A DNA stretch of 33,299 nucleotides from a virus. Below, one piece after another: positions 4,960 through 26,301 of the stretch. Under the pieces are notes generated by a model. The model ran no database searches, had not been told where the DNA came from, and was given only the letters and a program-made list of their open reading frames with translations. The DNA lies in IMG/VR virus record IMGVR_UViG_3300045974_000056, positions 1 through 33,299 of that record. One strand, written 5' to 3'. Numbering within the stretch: the stretch's first letter is position 1; every line of letters starts with the position of its first letter. A program made the translations under genes and the position numbers.

Positions 4960-5979
4960 TCAGGCCGTGACGAGCTTCTTGAGCACGCCGGCGACGTCGA
5001 TGTATGGAAAGCCGTCACTGCCAAAATAGACTTGGGCCGGAGTCATGGTCGGAGGCGCAACGACACCAGCCAACGCGGTGTAAAAGAGGTTGAAAATCTT
5101 CGAGTGCCCAGAATCCGCAGGATGCACGTTGTCGTGCATGTCCAATGGGACGAGAGCCCCGCAAACATCAACCAGGCTGACGTTCAGACCGTAACCAGCC
5201 ATTTCCTGCGATAGCGCAAGAATTGATGAATTGTAGGCATCCACATTGGCGGCAGATCCACCGTAGGTGTAGGCCAGCGCATGGGGAATATTGCCAAGCA
5301 CTACCTGCCCGCCATTCGGAACGCAACCGGAGAACCATTGCAGGAAAACAACGTTTGCGGCATTAGCCGATATAACGCTGATCTCTACCATGTGCGATCC
5401 TGCGCCAAGTCCTGGGAAGGCCAAGTCCATCGCGCCATAAGCGGCACCCAGAATCGTGCGAACGTCGCCGCCGACCGAAAACGTTCCCTTGGCAACCCCG
5501 TCGATCATCACGCTGAACGTCGCCGAGTTGTTGTATTGGCGCAGCATCCCGAGGATGATCGTATCCCCGGTGACGGTAAATGCGGCGCTTGCACCTGGCG
5601 CGCTTGTGGCGTAGCAACCGAAGGCGTAGCCATTCGACCATGCGCCGCCAAGCTGGGCCGTGCTTGGATTTATGGGCGTTGTTACCGATCCTAGCCGAGC
5701 GCAGAAGGCCCGAAGACCGTCGATGTAATAACCGCGCTTGGATGGATCAGAATCGTACTTTGCTTGATCGTTCGTACCGAGCATCACAATCGATTTGTCC
5801 CCGGGCGAGATAGTCCGAGCATAGAGCGATGGCGTCTGATCCATGACCATGCTGGTCGATACCGCCGCGTTGTCGATTGTGATACCTAGGGAAGCGTTGA
5901 GCTTGCCAATGTAGCTGTTCGCCGGCGACGATGCGCCGGCCCCTGCCGTGATTGAGTCCCCGAATGCGTGCATGGTCAT
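4960..5979 (-). CDS. SGNH/GDSL-family hydrolase at the tail-fibre end of the late operon
   Basis: 339 aa from the ATG at 5979, which overlaps the stop of the fibre chaperone gene (ATGA); the frame is open to 6030 but the coupled start is better. SGNH blocks: block I HAFGDSITAG (S9 nucleophile), block III GTNDQ (68-72, N70), block V DNVHP (D283, H286). Residues about 110-215 form an inserted beta-rich segment, so this is not a minimal GDSL esterase. C-terminal residues 310-339 may attach to the virion. Such proteins in tail loci often deacetylate or de-esterify surface polysaccharide; a receptor-binding enzyme is inferred. A terminator follows. Confidence 0.88.
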   Translation of the reverse strand: MTMHAFGDSITAGAGASSPANSYIGKLNASLGITIDNAAVSTSMVMDQTPSLYARTISPGDKSIVMLGTNDQAKYDSDPSKRGYYIDGLRAFCARLGSVTTPINPSTAQLGGAWSNGYAFGCYATSAPGASAAFTVTGDTIILGMLRQYNNSATFSVMIDGVAKGTFSVGGDVRTILGAAYGAMDLAFPGLGAGSHMVEISVISANAANVVFLQWFSGCVPNGGQVVLGNIPHALAYTYGGSAANVDAYNSSILALSQEMAGYGLNVSLVDVCGALVPLDMHDNVHPADSGHSKIFNLFYTALAGVVAPPTMTPAQVYFGSDGFPYIDVAGVLKKLVTA

Positions 5980-6305
5980 GACAGCTTTGCCCTCAGCGTT
6001 GCAATCTGGCCATTGATGTCGGCCAGCCATCTGTTGTCGGTGCCCAGCACAGCCTCGCGGATTCGGCGCGGTGTCACCGTGGCCTCAAGTGCGGCGATCT
6101 GCCCGAGAATGATCTGATTCGGCGTGGGCCGCGGCGCATCCTGGAGAACGGGATTGCCGTTTGCGTCGGCAACGATTCGCTTGCCTTCTGACTGGCCAGC
6201 AAACAGCGCAGCGTGTTCGGCTTCCGTGATTTCAACCGCATCAGCCGGAATGTCTGCATGAACATCGGCCAAATAGAAGCCACCTGTTGATTTTGAATAG
6301 AGCAT
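5976..6305 (-). CDS. Tail fibre assembly protein (Tfa-like chaperone)
   Basis: 109 aa. The opening YSKSTGGFY and following ADIPADAVEITEAEHAAL, then GKRIVADANGNPVL, match phage tail-fibre assembly proteins, which carry such a small N-terminal domain and a helical C-terminal tail (here about 60-109). It directly follows the fibre gene (9-bp gap) and its stop overlaps the SGNH gene start. It probably helps fold or trimerise the fibre and may stay bound to its tip. Confidence 0.85.
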   Translation of the reverse strand: MLYSKSTGGFYLADVHADIPADAVEITEAEHAALFAGQSEGKRIVADANGNPVLQDAPRPTPNQIILGQIAALEATVTPRRIREAVLGTDNRWLADINGQIATLRAKLS

Positions 6306-9922: not shown

Positions 9923-10908
9923 CAGCCATACCTCTTGATTGATCCGACGTCACCATTCACGCCTTGGCGCGGGATGTAGCTGGCCGGGATAGATGCGTCG
10001 ATGGCCAGGCAAAGAAGGTCTGAATACCACTCGTTGCCGCGTGTGTCTCCGATATGGTCGGCAATCATCACGTAATACAGGCCATCGGCATTCAGCTTGA
10101 TTGACTGTTCTGCCATCAGGTTGCCGGCCTGCTGGTTAATGCCGAGACCGAAGCGGTAACCCTGAATGCTTTTGTTGTCGATTTTCACGGCCTGCCCGAT
10201 CTTGATGTTCGGGTTCAGCAAGACACGAATCTTGATGCCGTTCTGGGTCTGCTCGGGCAAACCGATCATACCGGTGGCCGAAGTGATGACCGGAATATCG
10301 CCCTCGATGTAGGCACTTTCCGGAATCATCGTCAGCTTTCCGTCTTGAATGCTCCAGGCTGTCTGCGTGTTGCGGGCAATCTTGCGCAACTCGTCACGGC
10401 TCATGCCATAAATAACCTTGCCGCGTGGCAACTGGTTTCCGGGCATATCAGGAATGTATCCCTTGGAGATCGAGAATTCCGCCATGCCTTGAAGCACCGC
10501 AGAGATTTGATCTTTTGGGGAAGTGGACTCTGATGCCAGGCTGATCGCTGACATCGCGAAGTTGTAGGCGCTGTCTCCATCGGCCGCCGTGATGTCAAGA
10601 TAGGTATCTGTTTGCGACTCTCGCCCGCGGCGAACCTGCTTTATCTCGCCATCGAACAGCACGCCGAAGTTTCCGTCATAACCACCCTGAATCACGATGC
10701 GCGTGAATTCCGGCTGCGGCTGCAACTGCCGGATGCGGTCAGCTGTTGCGTCAGACACGTTATAGACGCGGATGTCTGCGCTATTCGGTGTCTGCAGGTC
10801 GCCACGCCGGATGGCAAAACGGAAGCGCAGTGCCGACAGGTCAAGTGCATCGCCATCCTGGCCGCCAATGATCAGCGAGGCCTTGCGCAGATACTGTTTC
10901 ACGCTCAT
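9922..10908 (-). CDS. Baseplate hub protein (gp44/gpD-like)
   Basis: 328 aa, hub-sized. The N-terminal region (RFRFAIRRGDLQTPNSADIRVYNVSD) and beta-rich body (IVIQGGYDGNFGVLFDGEIK, then LDITAADGDSAYNFA) match phage hub proteins that form the ring around the spike. It lies between plug and spike genes, as expected. Residues 160-200 (GNQLPRGKVIYGMSRDELRK) fit the conserved central domain. Confidence 0.88.
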   Translation of the reverse strand: MSVKQYLRKASLIIGGQDGDALDLSALRFRFAIRRGDLQTPNSADIRVYNVSDATADRIRQLQPQPEFTRIVIQGGYDGNFGVLFDGEIKQVRRGRESQTDTYLDITAADGDSAYNFAMSAISLASESTSPKDQISAVLQGMAEFSISKGYIPDMPGNQLPRGKVIYGMSRDELRKIARNTQTAWSIQDGKLTMIPESAYIEGDIPVITSATGMIGLPEQTQNGIKIRVLLNPNIKIGQAVKIDNKSIQGYRFGLGINQQAGNLMAEQSIKLNADGLYYVMIADHIGDTRGNEWYSDLLCLAIDASIPASYIPRQGVNGDVGSIKRYG

Positions 10909-11222
10909 CAGTCGGTTACCCAGAAAAGAAACGAGGCATTGCCCAAATTATCGAAAGTCGGCACGTCGTCAGGATTGACGGAGCTTTGAACCCATAGCCG
11001 GCCGGCAAACCCAAGGTGCTTGTATTGGGCGAGCAAGTCGGCCCCCGTTACGAGCGGGATGCCTTGCACGATGGCCGCCCCCTGCTTGTCGGAAATATCC
11101 AGAACCCACCCGCCACCAGGCGCGCTTCGATAGGCAAGCGTCAGCTGATACTCGGTTCCACTGAGCGAAATCGTGAAGCGCTGAGGGTTTGGCGAAAGCG
11201 GAATTTCGAAGAATTTCGGCAT
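10908..11222 (-). CDS. Baseplate plug protein (Pam3 gp18-like)
   Basis: 104 aa with short beta-strand pattern: EIPLSPNPQRFTISLSGTEY, GGWVLDISDKQGAAIVQGIP, LGFAGRLWVQ, ending FLFWVTD. Small proteins of this form between Dit-like and hub genes are called baseplate plug proteins in contractile-tail cyanophages. It probably fills the tube channel next to the hub. Start overlaps nothing upstream; its stop abuts the hub start. Confidence 0.83.
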   Translation of the reverse strand: MPKFFEIPLSPNPQRFTISLSGTEYQLTLAYRSAPGGGWVLDISDKQGAAIVQGIPLVTGADLLAQYKHLGFAGRLWVQSSVNPDDVPTFDNLGNASFLFWVTD

Positions 11223-11223
11223 G

Positions 11224-11802
11224 TCACATCCCTTGGCTTGAGACAGCTCCGCCGCTCATGGGAGAGAAGGTTTTGCTCTGCTTGTAACCGGCGTTCTCAA
11301 TGTTGGCCGTCTTGGCCGGATTGGCTTGGTTTTCCTTGGCCGGCAGCGTCGTCACTTGCGTTTCGACAATGATCATCTGGCGGCATGTGGCCTGCACCAT
11401 CAATGCGCTTCCGGTGCTCTGGTCGGTCGTCACATGCAGACCGATGATCTGCATGTTGCTGTACTGGCGCTTGCTGGTTGTAATCGCCAGCGGCTGACGG
11501 CTTTCTTGCAGCGCTAGAAGGTTCGAATAGACCGATGACACATAATCCGAAGCTGACATCGACCCGCTGAACAATTCGGAAACAGCCGACAGGAACAACT
11601 GCAGCGTTGAGTTTGTCCAGCCGCAGCGAATGACCACTTCTCTCGGGCGAACAAAGGCGTGATCCGTGATGGACGCGCCAAGTTCAACCGGGTGTTCCGT
11701 CACTTGCAGGGTGTCGGTGTAAATCTCCTCAATCGTCGCCGGAATGTCGATGGTTCCGATCCGTCCGGATGGAGCCAGCGAGAGGAGATCGAAGAGAGCC
11801 AT
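11224..11802 (-). CDS. Dit-like distal tail / baseplate protein
   Basis: 192 aa. The first 150 residues (IEEIYTDTLQVTEHPVELGA, ITDHAFVRPREVVIRCGWTN) match the N-terminal domain of Dit-like baseplate proteins, where the EHPVE..ASITDH segment is characteristic. The last 40 residues are low-complexity Ala/Asn/Ser. Forms the ring joining the tail tube to the baseplate hub. Starts at the stop of the tape-measure gene. Confidence 0.88.
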   Translation of the reverse strand: MALFDLLSLAPSGRIGTIDIPATIEEIYTDTLQVTEHPVELGASITDHAFVRPREVVIRCGWTNSTLQLFLSAVSELFSGSMSASDYVSSVYSNLLALQESRQPLAITTSKRQYSNMQIIGLHVTTDQSTGSALMVQATCRQMIIVETQVTTLPAKENQANPAKTANIENAGYKQSKTFSPMSGGAVSSQGM

Positions 11803-13244
11803 CAGTTGTACCTTAATTGCATGTTACGGGCGAGATTCTGATTCACTCGATCCTGCTCGCTGGCCACGGCACGGCCAGTCGCCGAGGCATCGCCGCCATT
11901 GACGTTGATCGTGGTGTTCTGGGCGATCTGAACCGCAGAATCGCCACGGCTCGACGCTTCAGACAATGCCTCAAGAGGCCGTTCGTAGTGGCGAGAAACA
12001 ATTTCTCCAGCCTGGCGTGCGTTGTTGGATGCTTTCAGCAACATGCCGGCCTTGCGCGCCCCGACATCCTGACCTTGCGTAAGCTCGTAATTCACGAAGC
12101 CCATTTGTTCTTCGGCAGTCGATTGTCGGATGTCTTTCCCGGCCCACTTGGCAAACGCTGCCTGACGATCCGGATGCCATTGAGCGAGGCCGTAGGCTTT
12201 CCCGCCATCGCCGATAGCATTGGGGTTCATGGTGCTTTCGCGATGGAGATTAGCAACAATTCCGGCGGCTTGATCTTTCGACCAGCCAAGGCCCATGAAG
12301 AAGGCCATTGGATCGGCGCCGCCTTTTGCCATAGGCGATTTATTGCCAGTATCCGATTGCGAACTGCTGCTACCGGTCAATGCTGAGTCGACCTGATCCT
12401 TGATACCCAGCTTGTCGAATATCCACGCCATCCCCTTGCCGATAGCATTGGCAAAACGTGAATTCGCCAGCGCTTCGCCGGCCGCGTTGATCCACGAGAA
12501 TATGTTTTTCCATCCTTCGGCGATCTTGTCGAGGATCGGCAGGATGATCGGTCCGGATTTGTTGATAACGTCAATCAGGTATGTCCCGATGGTTACCCCT
12601 ACCGCCTCGATGCGCGTTTGTATTTCGCGCAATTTGACGCCGAATTCGTGAGCCTTGCGGGTGGCCTCTTCGTATCCTGCATCCTTGAGCAATGCCTGTT
12701 GCTTTTCCAGTTCTTGGGAAAAGTCGCCATTCATCATGGCGCGCAGCGTGTCCTCGCCAATGCCAAGCATTGACCCATACTGTCGGGCGACAGTGTAGGG
12801 CTTGTCCTTGAGCGCCTGGCCGAGCTCGACCATCAACTCTGTGGTGTCTTTCAGCTCCCCATTTGCTTTTCTGGTGTTGACGCCAAGGCTGGCCAGAAAC
12901 CCTTCGGAGCCCGGAGTTTCTCTCATCCACCGAGCGAGACTTTGAACAGACTGCAGCGCATCTCCGGAAGCCGCGCCAAAATTGACAGCAGCCTTCTCAA
13001 ATGCCTTAAGGTTGGTTGCGCTCGCGCCGGTCTTCTGCGCTGCAAAGTAAAGCGCCTCCATGTTCGCAGCGAAGGCGGCAACCCCGGCCGATACTGTCAG
13101 CGCAGCGCCGGCAATACCGACGACCAGCTTGCTGACTGCCTTGGTCGCGCCTTCTACACCGTCGGTGAATTTCTTGAGGGACTTTTCGTCAGTGCGAAAT
13201 CCCAGCGATACAAGAAATTCCCGGATGACGTCAGCTTGTGCCAT
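11802..13244 (-). CDS. Tail tape-measure protein with C-terminal tail lysozyme domain
   Basis: 480 aa, short for a tape measure. Residues 1-75 and 135-290 are largely helical with hydrophobic segments (about 41-60). Residues about 312-400 match the phage tail lysozyme domain (FFMGLGWSKDQAAGIVANLH, GLAQWHPDRQ), with E336 in HRESTMNP the likely catalytic acid. It sets tail length and digests peptidoglycan during DNA entry. At about 0.15 nm per residue, 300-480 residues predict a tail of about 45-72 nm (inference). ATG at 13244 lies 14 bp inside the end of the frameshifted chaperone frame. Confidence 0.92.
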   Translation of the reverse strand: MAQADVIREFLVSLGFRTDEKSLKKFTDGVEGATKAVSKLVVGIAGAALTVSAGVAAFAANMEALYFAAQKTGASATNLKAFEKAAVNFGAASGDALQSVQSLARWMRETPGSEGFLASLGVNTRKANGELKDTTELMVELGQALKDKPYTVARQYGSMLGIGEDTLRAMMNGDFSQELEKQQALLKDAGYEEATRKAHEFGVKLREIQTRIEAVGVTIGTYLIDVINKSGPIILPILDKIAEGWKNIFSWINAAGEALANSRFANAIGKGMAWIFDKLGIKDQVDSALTGSSSSQSDTGNKSPMAKGGADPMAFFMGLGWSKDQAAGIVANLHRESTMNPNAIGDGGKAYGLAQWHPDRQAAFAKWAGKDIRQSTAEEQMGFVNYELTQGQDVGARKAGMLLKASNNARQAGEIVSRHYERPLEALSEASSRGDSAVQIAQNTTINVNGGDASATGRAVASEQDRVNQNLARNMQLRYN

Positions 13245-13865
13245 GTTTTTCCCTCGCTATTCTGTTCGCCAACGCCTCGTTGTCGGCATGGCACGCAATC
13301 GCATCATTCATCAGCGCGATGTCGGCCAGATCGATCGATCCGTCCTTGAGGCTTTCGTACCGGCACATGCCGGCGCGAACAGGCGCCAATAGCCAATCAT
13401 CGCCACCGGGCAGGCAGCGCCAATCGGCGGTTATTCCGGACTGCTCGCTTGGCTGGTAAGTAGTCCTTGAATAAAAGGGCCCAGGCTGTCCGCAATGACC
13501 TTGATTGCGATCTGGATCAAGTCGCCGAGGTCCATGTCGTCAAACATGCAGGCCTTCGCTCCCTTGTTCCAGACCGGTGCCCAGTTGCCGCCGGAAGCCT
13601 GCCGATGCACGACCGATAAGCATGTGGAGATCACGTATTCGCTCGACTCGTCGCTCATGTTGGCCAGGCCATCGGCAAACGGCCCAAGCAATGCGGCAAG
13701 ACCGGACATGTCCTTGGCCATGCTTCCGTCTTGGGAAATCTTGACGAAAACCGGGATCAGGGTCGGGATGATCGGAGCCACCCGGCGGGAAACGTGGAGT
13801 TGCTTGAACGCGTCCAGCTTCCCCGCCCGGTATTGGTTGTCACCAATTGAAAATTCGAGCATCAC
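13231..13865 (-). CDS. Tail assembly chaperone, predicted -1 frameshift fusion (G-T type)
   Basis: Predicted 211-aa product: residues 1-130 from the 13865 frame, then 81 residues read in the -1 frame from 13476 to the TGA at 13231-13233. The -1 frame is open across the slippery site and has no ATG, GTG or TTG between its previous stop (near 13541) and the slippery site. Its own protein sequence (TTYQPSEQSGITADWRCLP, then GMCRYESLKDGSIDLADIAL) resembles the DUF6889-type downstream chaperone partner. The gene pair lies between tube and tape measure, exactly where phages use G/GT frameshifting to make tail chaperones. Not verified by experiment. Confidence 0.78.
13431..13865 (-). CDS. Tail assembly chaperone (unshifted product)
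   Basis: 144 aa. Starts MMLEFSIGDNQYRAGKLDAF and continues as a helical protein (KDMSGLAALLGPFADGLANM, VISTCLSVVHRQ), a pattern of small tail assembly chaperones that bind the tape measure. Lies between the tube gene (stop at 13869) and tape measure. Codons 129-131 (GGC CCT TTT) form the slippery site that leads to the longer fusion product; without slippage translation stops at 13431. Confidence 0.85.
   Translation of the reverse strand: MMLEFSIGDNQYRAGKLDAFKQLHVSRRVAPIIPTLIPVFVKISQDGSMAKDMSGLAALLGPFADGLANMSDESSEYVISTCLSVVHRQASGGNWAPVWNKGAKACMFDDMDLGDLIQIAIKVIADSLGPFIQGLLTSQASSPE
13473..13482 (-). promoter_or_regulatory. Programmed -1 ribosomal frameshift site (two overlapping slippery heptamers)
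   Basis: On the minus strand the bases read GGGCCCTTTT. In the chaperone frame they are G GGC CCT TTT, which contains two X XXY YYZ heptamers: G GGC CCT (13476-13482) and C CCT TTT (13473-13479). Both tRNAs can re-pair after slipping back one base (GGG CCC or CCC TTT). The -1 frame is open onward to 13231. Confidence 0.8.
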
Positions 13866-13868
13866 CGG

Positions 13869-14315
13869 TTACTCCGGATACACGCCAAGAATGGTATCGA
13901 TCTTGATGCAATCGAATGCCCACTCCATGATGTCTCCGTCCTTGGCGTACTTGATAGCCGGCTTTTTCTTGAATGCCGCGTTTCGGCAGACCGTTACGTC
14001 GCCGCTAACCGGGTTGGTGATGGTGATCACGTTCAGGCCATGCAGCTTGCTGGACATGGTCTGGGCGTCGTACATGGCCATCAGCTTGGCATTCGTCGGC
14101 GACGTTTTGAGCAGGCGAACGGTGACGGTGCCCGACTTGTCGGCGTGCAGAGAATGCATGCCTTCTCCGTCAGCGCCGATCATCATCGTGTTCTTGTCGC
14201 CGGCCATCTCGATTGAAATACCTTCGTCGGCGAGGGCCGCGCCGTAGCCAAGGTACAGCGTACCAGTGGGGCCAACCAGCGCGGCGTTTACATCCATGAA
14301 AGAATAAGTTGCCAT
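13869..14315 (-). CDS. Tail tube protein (DUF3277)
   Basis: 148 aa. ATYSFMDVNAALVGPTGTLYL at the start and GISIEMAGDKNTMMIGADGE are typical of DUF3277 tube proteins of contractile-tail phages. Polymerises as hexameric rings inside the sheath. Directly follows the sheath gene (12-bp gap). Confidence 0.9.
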   Translation of the reverse strand: MATYSFMDVNAALVGPTGTLYLGYGAALADEGISIEMAGDKNTMMIGADGEGMHSLHADKSGTVTVRLLKTSPTNAKLMAMYDAQTMSSKLHGLNVITITNPVSGDVTVCRNAAFKKKPAIKYAKDGDIMEWAFDCIKIDTILGVYPE

Positions 14316-14326
14316 CGGTCAGCCTC

Positions 14327-15814
14327 TTAGCGATTAACGTTGATGATGATGTTGGCCGAATGAACGGCGCCGGCCAGCTTGATTGCGCACTGGATCGCCG
14401 GTGCCTTCCGGGCTTCGCGGTCGGCTTGCGATTGCGTGGCAACCGGCGGCGCGTAAATGTAGTAGCCCTTGGGTAGCGTATCGCCCTGGTTCAGCGCACC
14501 GAATCCGGAAGCATTCCAGACGCCGGGAGCGACAAGGCCATTGGTGACAGCCTGTTCAAGGCGGTGCGCAATGGTGGCCAGAATCAGGTTGATGCCGGCA
14601 TCCGTCTGCGGAATCTTTGTCGTGCTGGTGTAAAGCAGGTTGTAGACGGCCGTCTGAACATCGTTCTGCAGCCAGTCGGTGCCATGCACTTCGTCAAAGA
14701 AGTAGCCATTGACCATCTCGCCTTCTTGGATGATGGCCGTGTCGTTGTTGTACTGGACGAAGGCATTGCAGTTCTTGAATCCAAGCGTGGCGGCTTGGCT
14801 CTCGGTCAGGTTTTCCGCTGCGACGCCGGGCTCCTGCTTGAACTTGATCGTCAGGGTCGTGTTCGAGCCTTGGAAATTGACCGAGAAGGCGCGACCGACA
14901 ATTGAGGCGGCTGCATGCGCATTGCTGCTGGAATACTGAATGAAGGTTCGCTTGTAGCCGAGGGCCTTCAATTGGCTGGCAATGTCGGTCGTTTGCGTCG
15001 AGTCGAGGACAGTGGTGTTTTGCGTGGTGACGCCATAGATATGGCTGGCGCTCGATCCTTCGATGAAACCGGCAACGGCCAGCACATCGGCGTCAGCCGG
15101 AGCGACAGACGATGCGACATAGAGCCCGTACCAGGCATTCGAAATGTTGGCGAAGGTTGCCACGGCGTTGACCAGCGTTTCCGCTGCGATGCCATCGACG
15201 GACGAGCCGCCATTCGTGTTGCCGATCTTGAGCAAGGCACGAACGTCGGTACCGGACCCGGGCGCCGCGGCAAACGATACCTTGGACGTTGTTCCGGTCG
15301 TCGCGCTGGTGATCTCGAAGCGGCTCAGATTGGCATTCCAGACGCAGGTTGCGCCGGTCAGCTTGGCCTGAATCGCACTGGCAACACCGTTCAGGTTGGT
15401 GACGCCGGACAAGTTCAGAGCCGTCACGTTCTGCAATACGCTGTCGATGGTGACGCCAAATGCGCCCGTGGTGACGCCCGTAAAATTGGCGATTGCCTGA
15501 TCGACCGTCGAAAGAATGCCGCCATGCAGGATACCGGACATTGCGACGCGTGCCCACTTGCCGACATACAGCGTCGAGGGCTGCGGGGTCTGACCGAAGT
15601 ACAGCGCAGCAGCCTTGTATTCCGGGGCGGTCGTGCCAAAGTCAGCGGCCACGCCGTCCAGCGTGGTGTAGAGGCGCAGGCGCTCCGTGGTGTCGATGAT
15701 GGCGCTATCGCCAAGGATCAACAGCGATCCAAAGTTGCGAGTGCTTGCCGCCTTGGGCGACATCACAATCGACACGCTGACGACGTCGCTGACGTTCAAT
15801 CCGAGATTGCTCAT
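14327..15814 (-). CDS. Tail sheath protein (DUF3383)
   Basis: 495 aa, normal for DUF3383 sheaths. Opening VSDVVSVSIVMSPKAASTRN, GSLLILGDSAIIDTTERLRL, and EYKAAALYFGQTPQPSTLYV are characteristic. The C-terminal portion (about 330-495) includes the conserved core and IIINVNR end. It forms the contractile outer tube. A 414-aa ORF on the opposite strand is a shadow of this gene. Confidence 0.95.
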   Translation of the reverse strand: MSNLGLNVSDVVSVSIVMSPKAASTRNFGSLLILGDSAIIDTTERLRLYTTLDGVAADFGTTAPEYKAAALYFGQTPQPSTLYVGKWARVAMSGILHGGILSTVDQAIANFTGVTTGAFGVTIDSVLQNVTALNLSGVTNLNGVASAIQAKLTGATCVWNANLSRFEITSATTGTTSKVSFAAAPGSGTDVRALLKIGNTNGGSSVDGIAAETLVNAVATFANISNAWYGLYVASSVAPADADVLAVAGFIEGSSASHIYGVTTQNTTVLDSTQTTDIASQLKALGYKRTFIQYSSSNAHAAASIVGRAFSVNFQGSNTTLTIKFKQEPGVAAENLTESQAATLGFKNCNAFVQYNNDTAIIQEGEMVNGYFFDEVHGTDWLQNDVQTAVYNLLYTSTTKIPQTDAGINLILATIAHRLEQAVTNGLVAPGVWNASGFGALNQGDTLPKGYYIYAPPVATQSQADREARKAPAIQCAIKLAGAVHSANIIINVNR

Positions 15815-21006: not shown

Positions 21007-22761
21007 TTACTGAATCTTTGCCGTCGTCGGATGAGCAATACTAACGGTAACTGACCCAGCACCTGCAAACGTGATGACTATTTCAAGATATGCAGATTGA
21101 ACTGCGCTGGCACTGTTGGCAGTTTTCCGGGTGTTCCAGTCGGTTGTGATAATCGATGTAGGAATTGCGTCGTTATGCACGAAGTTATTCGAGCTGTTCC
21201 ATTCAGGGAAGAAGAACTGATCGACGCTATATAGCGCATCCTCTCCGAGGTAGAGGATTCTGAGCTTCGCAGTCAATCCTTTAACATTGACCATTGCCCC
21301 GGTCTTGAGTCGCAAAGCTGCGACCAAATTATCCAAGTCAAGAGCAGGCGACGTGATTGGCATCTGGATAATTACTTGGTCATTGTTGGCAGACCCAGAG
21401 GCTGCGCAGTTAAACCAGTTACCGAAGGCATCACCATCAGCTGCAACAGTTCGAGCCGTTAGTGTTGGAACTGCTGCACCAGCCCCGCCATAAACAACGG
21501 CAACACCATCTGGCACATTTGCGTTCGTGACCGAATTAAGCGTCCCGCCTGTCGTTGCGGTCAGCGCTGTATTTGCCCAAAGATTGTCATCGCTCAGTGC
21601 TTCTGACGCACAGGAAAAAAGCACGGGGGCTTTCTTCGGAATCTGCGATCCGACAGCATTAAACACTTGGAGTCCAGTACCTCTGCCAGCAGTGGTGTCA
21701 AAATGAATAGCATCCATTAAGAAATTGGCATTTGCCGTCATCTGTGTGCTGGACGTGTTGGCAAAAGTTAATCCATTGCCTGTGGCCTTTGGTGTATCAA
21801 TAGCGATACCGCCCAATGCCACAAACTGACTTCTAATCCACTCGTTTACGGCGAGGTGAGTTTTCATCAACGCCAAGGAGTACCCGGTATTTCTGGGCGG
21901 GATGCTTAAAAGAACATATTTTGCCCCGATACCATTGCATTTTTGCAGCATGGCAGTATGCGCAGCGATAATTCGGGCATAACCCCAGCCACGGGCATAG
22001 ACATCATTTGTCGATGCGTCGCCAATCACATAAACCGGATTAGCAACAGCGTGCGTCTGGTCAAACATGGCGACATTCTGCTCAGTGTCGCCACCGCCCA
22101 TGCCGAAATTACCCAGACATTTGGCGCTGAATCCTGTGTAAAACTCAAACCACCACGGCCATGATGTGGACGAAATTGGCCGCTTTGAATACATTGAATC
22201 AACCGTAATTCCTGTGCTTAATACGGGGCATCCAGGGCCGGTGATGTCGTAATCGAACCATGCCATGGCAGCGGTCCTGTCATGCGCGACTACCTTTGCG
22301 TAGAACTGGTTAAAAACTTGCGTTGCACTTCCGGCAACTCTAACTGCTAGACCTGTGCGATACAGTCGAGCGATCAGTGTCCCGGAACAACGTGCGGTGC
22401 CGTTCCCGTTATTGGCGATGGTTACAGTCGGATACTGCGGAGTGGTGGCAAAGGCGGAGATAGACGAACCGCAAATGGTGTAACTGCCGGGTATTTTGCC
22501 AAGTCCTAGTGCGCCAGAAATGTCAGACCCACCAGCCGAAATTCCAATCACCCCGGTGACACCCTTAGAAAACCGGACAATATTGTCCGGGCTATCAGCC
22601 GGCAGATCGGTAACAGATACCCACCCAAGCGCAGAAAACCCGGAAACATCGGAGCTGTCGACATAAGAATAGCCCTGCGCATCGACGGTATAAATACGGT
22701 CAGTTACCGGGCCAAGGCCAGTATTGACGCCAACCGGCGGCTTCATTTTCACAAATGCCAT
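21007..22761 (-). CDS. SGNH-hydrolase-like protein inserted in the head gene block
   Basis: 584 aa. An N-terminal domain (about 1-50, GVNTGLGPVTDRIYTVDAQG and GFSALGWVSV) may attach it to the virion. SGNH elements lie at 187-190 (VDSM, S189 as candidate nucleophile, with Val replacing the Gly of GDS), 219-224 (FGMGGG), 250-253 (STND, N252) and 350-353 (DAIH, D350 and H353). LLSIPPRN fits the usual strand before the C-terminal block. Residues 370-584 form an extra beta-rich domain. The gene is visibly lower in GC (about 45-50% in sampled lines versus about 60% nearby), has its own ribosome site (AAGGA) and a terminator behind it. Likely a decoration or injected enzyme acting on glycans or esters; substrate unknown. 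Confidence 0.8.
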   Translation of the reverse strand: MAFVKMKPPVGVNTGLGPVTDRIYTVDAQGYSYVDSSDVSGFSALGWVSVTDLPADSPDNIVRFSKGVTGVIGISAGGSDISGALGLGKIPGSYTICGSSISAFATTPQYPTVTIANNGNGTARCSGTLIARLYRTGLAVRVAGSATQVFNQFYAKVVAHDRTAAMAWFDYDITGPGCPVLSTGITVDSMYSKRPISSTSWPWWFEFYTGFSAKCLGNFGMGGGDTEQNVAMFDQTHAVANPVYVIGDASTNDVYARGWGYARIIAAHTAMLQKCNGIGAKYVLLSIPPRNTGYSLALMKTHLAVNEWIRSQFVALGGIAIDTPKATGNGLTFANTSSTQMTANANFLMDAIHFDTTAGRGTGLQVFNAVGSQIPKKAPVLFSCASEALSDDNLWANTALTATTGGTLNSVTNANVPDGVAVVYGGAGAAVPTLTARTVAADGDAFGNWFNCAASGSANNDQVIIQMPITSPALDLDNLVAALRLKTGAMVNVKGLTAKLRILYLGEDALYSVDQFFFPEWNSSNNFVHNDAIPTSIITTDWNTRKTANSASAVQSAYLEIVITFAGAGSVTVSIAHPTTAKIQ

Positions 22762-24930: not shown

Positions 24931-26301
24931 TTAATTTCCCAGCTTTGCCCACAGCGCAGCACCGCTCACCGGCAGGAATGCCATGATGAAAGCGTCTGCA
25001 AGGTTCGGCGATGCAACGTCACGCTTTGCGAGGTCAGATTTACTTTCAACCTTCACCCGGCCGGCGTTGTCGAAATCGCGCTTTGGCGTCGATAGCTCGT
25101 CGATCAGCTTGTCGACGTTCGGCATGGTCGAGTCGATGAAGATCAATTCATCAACTTCAAACTTCTGACCGTTTCGCACGGCGTTGTAGGTGTTCTTCAG
25201 CTGGTCAGCCACCAGCCACCAGGCTTGAGCCTTGATGTTGGCGAACATGTCTTTATTCTTGACGCCGGTTCGTGCGTAATCGCCGTCAGGCTTCATTACT
25301 GCGCCGCCAGCGAAGAACTTGCTGTGCGACACGGAATCAGCCTGGCCGATGTTCAGTTCGTTGAACTTCGCCCCGCATCCAGCGCCTACACCGATGGCGT
25401 CATAAATAACGCTATCGTTACGCTCTCTTGCGGTCGACCACACGCGGGAGCACGACTTCAGCAGTTCGTCTTCCTTGGCTTTCCACAGATCAGACCACGT
25501 AGCCAGCTGGCCATGCGCTTCGATCATGGCGCAGCTATCCTCACCAGAGTCAGCAACGTCAAAGCCGATGCGGCGATGGCCTAGCGGCTCAATGTTGAGC
25601 GCCTTGTGCGCGTCAATAGCGGCCAGCAACCACGATCGCTTGATTACCGCGTCGTCGTCGTCATCGTTCGGCACGCCTTCGTAGATGTGCAGGTATTCGT
25701 CAAGGTCAGCGGCTTTTGCTGCTTCAATGACTTTTATGATTGTCGAACTGAGAAACGGGTTCTCGTTGTAGTTGATCTTCCGAACAATGGTGTCCGGTGG
25801 CGGGTTCGTCACGAAGCGCCGATAAACAAAGTCCGTCGACAGCCTGGGGTTGAAGATCACCCAGAACTGCGAGCCTTCTTTTCTCAGGGTTGGCTCGAGA
25901 ACCTCCCATTGCTCTTTCGTGAGGTTGTGCGCCTCTTCGATCCAGCAAACATCAACGCCTTCAAGCGACTTGATTTCGTCAATGGAGCGCCACAGCCCAT
26001 AGAACAGGAACTCGCTTCCCGTCCGCATGTGCGTGATGCTGTTGTCCAGAATCTTGAACTCTGAACTCTTTCCGAACCGCTCAATCTGAATCTTGAGGAG
26101 GGTATATACCGACTCGGCAATCTTGTTCTGGAACTGGCGAGCGCACAGGAAACGAATCTTGCACCTCGAGGCGAGGAACACAGCGAACGCTGCGGCGTCC
26201 CACGACTTCGACGACGACCGGCCGCCGTACAGAACGCGGTTGCGCGCCGGCTTCAGCCAGAAGTCACGCAGCACAGGGTTCGGGCTAGGCTTTGCCTCCA
26301 T
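24931..26301 (-). CDS. Terminase large subunit (PBSX-type)
   Basis: 456 aa. ATPase: Walker A-like GGRSSSKS (26-33) and Walker B VDVCWIEEAH (116-125, E122/E123). Nuclease: GFDVADSGEDS (D248 and D251), IYDAIGVGAG, and SPNLADAFIMAF near the C-terminus with the last acidic residue. Packages DNA into proheads and cuts concatemers. A run of five Asp (213-217) lies in the linker. Overlaps TerS by 17 bp. Confidence 0.96.
   Translation of the reverse strand: MEAKPSPNPVLRDFWLKPARNRVLYGGRSSSKSWDAAAFAVFLASRCKIRFLCARQFQNKIAESVYTLLKIQIERFGKSSEFKILDNSITHMRTGSEFLFYGLWRSIDEIKSLEGVDVCWIEEAHNLTKEQWEVLEPTLRKEGSQFWVIFNPRLSTDFVYRRFVTNPPPDTIVRKINYNENPFLSSTIIKVIEAAKAADLDEYLHIYEGVPNDDDDDAVIKRSWLLAAIDAHKALNIEPLGHRRIGFDVADSGEDSCAMIEAHGQLATWSDLWKAKEDELLKSCSRVWSTARERNDSVIYDAIGVGAGCGAKFNELNIGQADSVSHSKFFAGGAVMKPDGDYARTGVKNKDMFANIKAQAWWLVADQLKNTYNAVRNGQKFEVDELIFIDSTMPNVDKLIDELSTPKRDFDNAGRVKVESKSDLAKRDVASPNLADAFIMAFLPVSGAALWAKLGN

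Follow-up and report, generated by a model that had tools for sequence, protein, structure and literature searches.

A predicted -1 ribosomal frameshift in a myovirus-like tail assembly chaperone, with a conserved T_TTT core and a covarying stem-loop

We analysed a viral sequence of 33,299 nt (IMG/VR record IMGVR_UViG_3300045974_000056, positions 1 to 33,299; called the window below). It very probably directs a programmed -1 ribosomal frameshift, aided by a stem-loop, that would yield a minor G-T-type fusion of the myovirus-like tail assembly chaperone. A sequence-only reading of the window had proposed such a G/GT-type frameshift, and this part of it is strongly supported by the gene order, the Pfam and PHROG families, the conservation of the -1 frame and annotated precedents.

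According to PHROG and Pfam, the genes of this region follow each other in the order sheath, tube, chaperone, extension and tape measure (Table 1). The chaperone frame starts with an ATG at 13862 (143 aa) or an alternative GTG at 13865 (144 aa), and its stop ends at 13431. The -1 frame opens at 13539 and contains no ATG, GTG or TTG upstream of the slip site. It continues for 81 codons beyond GGGCCCT or 80 beyond CCCTTTT before reaching a stop whose last base is 13231; this lies 14 nt into the tape-measure ORF, which starts at 13244. All of this agrees with the sequence-only reading, and so does the predicted length of the fusion, 211 aa from the GTG (210 aa from the ATG), with the junction ...LGPF-YSRTTYQPSEQSG.... 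A -1 frame of this length would be open by chance in about 5% of cases; the open length is weak evidence, the conservation described below strong evidence. AlphaFold2 models of the chaperone and of the extension reached mean pLDDT values of 90 and 88. A PDB structure search with both models gave no significant match and a PDB sequence search no relevant one. Because no PDB structure matched either model, the name of the chaperone rests on families and synteny. Both databases list the function of the extension families, Pfam DUF6889 (PF21829) and phrog_4364, as unknown.

Table 1. Features of the chaperone region, in window coordinates.
Feature	Position	Strand	Evidence or remark
Tail sheath	14327..15814	-	phrog_205 tail sheath E=6e-132; Pfam DUF3383
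Tail tube-like structural protein, directly upstream of chaperone	13869..14315	-	Pfam KPP10_Orf10 E=6e-58; phrog_280 virion structural protein
Tail assembly chaperone, 0-frame product, 143 aa	13431..13862	-	PHROG 1688 E=1e-36; Pfam TAC_15 E=2e-27
Overlapping heptamer GGGCCCT, probably incidental	13476..13482	-	Would give same product; GGGCCCTTTT in 4/207 unique relatives
Shift site CCCTTTT	13473..13479	-	In register; conserved core CCT_TTT, i.e. T_TTT then ATN
5' stem arm GGACUACU	13459..13466	-	6 nt after shift site; spacer scan, covariation, RNAalifold
Loop GCCAA	13449..13453	-	Complementary to UUGGC at 13419-13423; candidate pseudoknot partner, unsupported
3' stem arm AGCAGUCC	13438..13445	-	7/8 pairs form in window, one A.C mismatch
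-1 frame extension (T-like part), 80 aa	13231..13473	-	Pfam DUF6889 E=5e-19; phrog_4364 E=2e-19
Tape measure protein with tail lysozyme domain	11802..13244	-	PHROG tape measure families; Pfam Phage_lysozyme2

Two other genes of the window attracted our attention. A tail-region protein (4960-6030, minus strand) carries a GDSL-like esterase domain, and the head module includes a 584-aa ORF (21007-22761, minus strand) that has no PHROG, Pfam or PADLOC match and none in 50,697 phage records; its matches in viral contigs are all from the same phage. Visually, its N-terminus is similar to small decoration proteins, and SGNH-hydrolase-like motifs are present.

Near the end of the TAC_15 chaperone, the window reads GGGCCCTTTT (13482-13473, minus strand; 0-frame CTG GGC CCT TTT ATT). 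As the sequence-only reading had pointed out, this stretch holds two overlapping heptamers, GGGCCCT and CCCTTTT, both in register. Slippage at either would give an identical fusion, so the product alone cannot tell them apart. They are the only canonical in-register heptamers in the chaperone gene, and such heptamers are rare in the window overall (12 in 5,883 codon positions of 20 genes). Two of the others lie close to gene ends: GGGAAAT at 24940 (minus strand) precedes the stop of the terminase by 3 codons, and TTTGGGC at 10947 (minus strand) precedes that of 10908-11222 by 13 codons. At both, the -1 frame enters the next gene; they are probably chance occurrences at gene overlaps.

We gathered relatives by tblastn in phage records, scans of viral contigs and one genome scan. 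DUF6889 lay in the -1 frame in 180 of 180 cases of a first-pass survey and, with profiles for both domains, in all 335 loci in which TAC_15 and DUF6889 stand side by side (209 unique pairs), although several annotations present it as a separate hypothetical gene or omit it. In 201 of 207 unique relatives, the codon that follows NNT_TTT is the first of the conserved extension sequence, and an R two residues past this start is invariant in an alignment of 11 diverse members. NNT_TTT itself occupies the shift site in 207 of 209 unique relatives. The remaining two, L010 and L131 (a Bordetella phage; an Achromobacter relative), lack T_TTT and have at the same place GGGAAAT followed by ACT or ATT and TTC, a site close to the GGGAAAG of lambda.

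The alignment of relatives, proposed as a check in the sequence-only reading, upheld the -1 frame and the shift core. The GC-rich double heptamer, which had been singled out as special, did not hold up: with GGGCCCTTTT in only 4 of 207 unique relatives, we rejected the GGGCCCT overlap as part of the signal, and what is kept is T_TTT. The most frequent sites are CCCTTTT (75), AAATTTT (66) and GCCTTTT (37), followed by CAGTTTT, TTCTTTT, TCCTTTT, CGGTTTT, GGGTTTT, GGATTTT, ACCTTTT and others. In the CCTTTTAT group, to which the window belongs, CCT accounts for 5% of the Pro codons and TTT for 19% of the Phe codons elsewhere in the genes, and the base before CCT tracks Gly codon usage (GGC in 75 of 116 versus 81 expected, p = 0.19). 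Since both codons are rare elsewhere and the preceding base follows Gly usage, the selected unit in this group is CCT_TTT. The first triplet of X_XXY_YYZ is not under selection here (GCCTTTT is frequent, and TCCTTTT and ACCTTTT occur), and codon usage largely explains why the sites take the form of a canonical heptamer. The AAT groups present another picture: GGA, which makes G_GGA_AAT_TTT, represents 63 of 64 Gly codons at the site versus a background of 10–16%.

The sequence-only reading had missed a covarying stem-loop that follows the shift site. An 8-nt 5' arm (GGACUACU in the window, GGGCUGCU in most relatives) is separated from its partner by a loop of usually 13 nt. An unbiased spacer scan gave a signal at 5–8 nt with a maximum at 6 nt for the 8-nt arm (z about 12). 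When arms were swapped among 127 unique sequences, the pairing score was 18.4 for own arms versus 14.5 +/- 0.23 for swapped ones, and none of 20,000 permutations was as good. The signal persisted after removal of close relatives (z 9 to 14; z 11 with thinning below 75% identity). Within the 13-nt-loop class, the alignment shows pairing in 98.6% of cells, four pairs that have changed on both sides, and a covariation of 0.239 versus 0.128 in shuffles (0/500 as high); these counts are taken over related sequences, and shuffling and arm swapping remove relatedness only in part. One pair occurs as GC, CG, AU, UA and GU, which includes all four Watson-Crick types. RNAalifold recovers the same stem unaided, and Acinetobacter relatives keep it with loops of 20–23 nt. 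For the window's own stem, the folding advantage over shuffles is modest (z -1.9), and an Rfam search over 12800-14400 found nothing at E values up to 1. Since two coding frames pass through the stem region, part of its conservation is protein-driven, for which arm swapping controls partly.

The loop could also pair with sequence downstream of the stem. Six base pairs are possible in most relatives of the 13-nt-loop class, with a weak signal in the swap test. For the pairing of loop CCAGCC with downstream GGCUGG, covariation was not above controls in two registers, and we did not adopt this form. A loop-downstream pseudoknot is possible but not supported.

The presence of the stem depends on the type of shift site. 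It is found in 84–90% of relatives with TTTTAT sites and in 0–8% of those with TTTTTT sites, two classes that also differ in ancestry. The 50 sites without any canonical heptamer keep it as often as other AT-followed sites, while none of 37 sites of the GGGAAATTTTTTN type, which have three in-register heptamers, carries it. In the AAATTTTTTG and AAATTTTTTT groups, where structures of another kind may exist, the swap test was unconvincing at every spacer. The simplest reading of this pattern is that a weak shift site would depend on stimulation by structure, whereas a strong one would work without it. On balance, we lean towards a single chaperone family with two interchangeable settings, either a weak CCU_UUU_AU or AAU_UUU_AU with a compensated stem or a strong G_GGA_AAU_UUU_UUN without one, in which the trade-off would hold the dose of fusion protein.

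Peptidyl-tRNA-Phe on U_UUU might move back alone before the next codon is read, so that the heptamer as such would be irrelevant. We regard such single-tRNA slippage as a possible if somewhat doubtful explanation: T_TTT is the one feature common to 207 of the 209 sites, and both the Gly codon usage before CCT and the retention of the stem at sites without a canonical heptamer fit it, but the strong selection in the AAT group for the base completing A_AAT_TTT means that tandem slippage matters there, and sites with only a partial X_XX are functional in other systems (PMC5009743). A further alternative accepts the frameshift and explains the stem by dual-frame protein coding, without any stimulating effect. 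The arms do encode conserved residues in both frames, and the controls leave some relatedness. However, protein coding does not readily account for a pair at which all four types of compensatory change are seen, for arms that remain complementary while the loop varies in length, or for a signal that peaks at the standard 6 nt spacer and is absent in TTTTTT relatives. We therefore consider a non-stimulating stem unlikely.

Two other explanations do without ribosomal slippage. DUF6889 may be a separate gene with its own start or with re-initiation, as drawn in the annotations of BgManors32, yong1, RCIP0034 and others, and the window offers a TTG at 13389. This TTG, however, falls within the conserved core, which a start there would truncate, and it is the slip site, rather than any start codon, that marks where conservation begins. 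Of 207 relatives, 108 lack any ATG, GTG or TTG in the -1 frame ahead of the core (176 lack an ATG), so that independent initiation is ruled out as the general case and a separate gene is very improbable. Slippage of RNA polymerase on the T run, for which six or seven T's in some relatives could be cited, seems more improbable still: the window has only four T's, and reported transcriptional realignment involves runs above eight T's (PMC3711429). Ribosomal frameshifting is thus the reading that we retain.

Comparable systems are known from phages and bacteria. Xu, Hendrix and Duda (2004) reportedly described the -1 frameshift of lambda gpG/gpGT and its counterparts across long-tailed phages. 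On bacterial ribosomes, stem-loops stimulate -1 frameshifting in E. coli dnaX and in IS911; the arrangement described here shares with them a slippery site and a 3' stem-loop at a short spacer (6 nt and covarying, within 5–9 nt), and differs in the genes and the shift site. In lambda, the programmed shift takes place at G_GGA_AAG, with counterparts in long-tailed phages (reviewed in PMC5009743). The position before the tape measure, the -1 direction and the pairing of a short chaperone with a minor, C-terminally extended fusion are as in lambda, whereas the TAC_15 and DUF6889 families, the core CCU_UUU in place of GGA_AAG and the covarying stem 6 nt downstream are not. Partial slippery sites have been described for the Japanese encephalitis serogroup (U_CC) and an insect-specific flavivirus (G_GA) (PMC5009743). 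Their imperfect P-site re-pairing resembles that expected in GCCTTTT, TCCTTTT and GGATTTT relatives, although these are RNA viruses translated by eukaryotic ribosomes.

The chaperone frameshift itself is already known in this family. The joined product is annotated in two database records, Klebsiella phage Mulock (QFG06717.1) and Burkholderia phage Magia (YP_010668111.1). Both are direct family members with the same chaperone-extension arrangement; Mulock falls into the AAATTTTTTG class and is without the stem. In addition, a chaperone frameshift at GGGTTTT was predicted for ORF16.1 of the B. thailandensis phage phiE067 (PMC7266877), which we liken by its published description and which lies outside the sequences aligned here. 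Neither the Mulock and Magia annotations nor the available passages of the phiE067 paper (PMC7266877) give a stem or a conserved core. Judged from the open-licence literature, the stem and the T_TTT core would be additions to the known frameshift, and an earlier mention of the stem may exist. An apparently different solution is seen in a Methylobacterium prophage (L157:1479-2731, plus strand; also L341), where a first chaperone gene is followed by a second chaperone-like domain and DUF6889 in a single frame. The duplicated gene could make a shift at the usual site unnecessary for producing both forms; this is one genome and not enough to build on.

Taken together, we infer the following course of events. 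Ribosomes on CUG GGC CCU UUU AUU would pause once the mRNA entry channel meets the stem-loop that starts 6 nt downstream. CCU would then occupy the P site and UUU the A site, and their tRNAs would slip back by one base; the UUU tRNA can re-pair perfectly on U_UUU, and the P-site tRNA would have to tolerate re-pairing on NCC. Translation would then enter DUF6889 and end across the start of the tape measure. Presumably, the 143-aa chaperone comes from the majority of ribosomes and the 210-aa fusion from a minority. By analogy with lambda (PMC5009743), DUF6889 may have a binding role, and the fusion would connect tube subunits with the tape measure.

About a quarter of these chaperone genes would escape a search restricted to canonical heptamers. 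If the stem works as we suppose, the more than 200 unique sequences represent a natural series in which the strength of the shift site is traded against RNA structure, and phage control of the chaperone dose would become directly testable. DUF6889/phrog_4364 would also gain a role, as the T-like frameshift extension.
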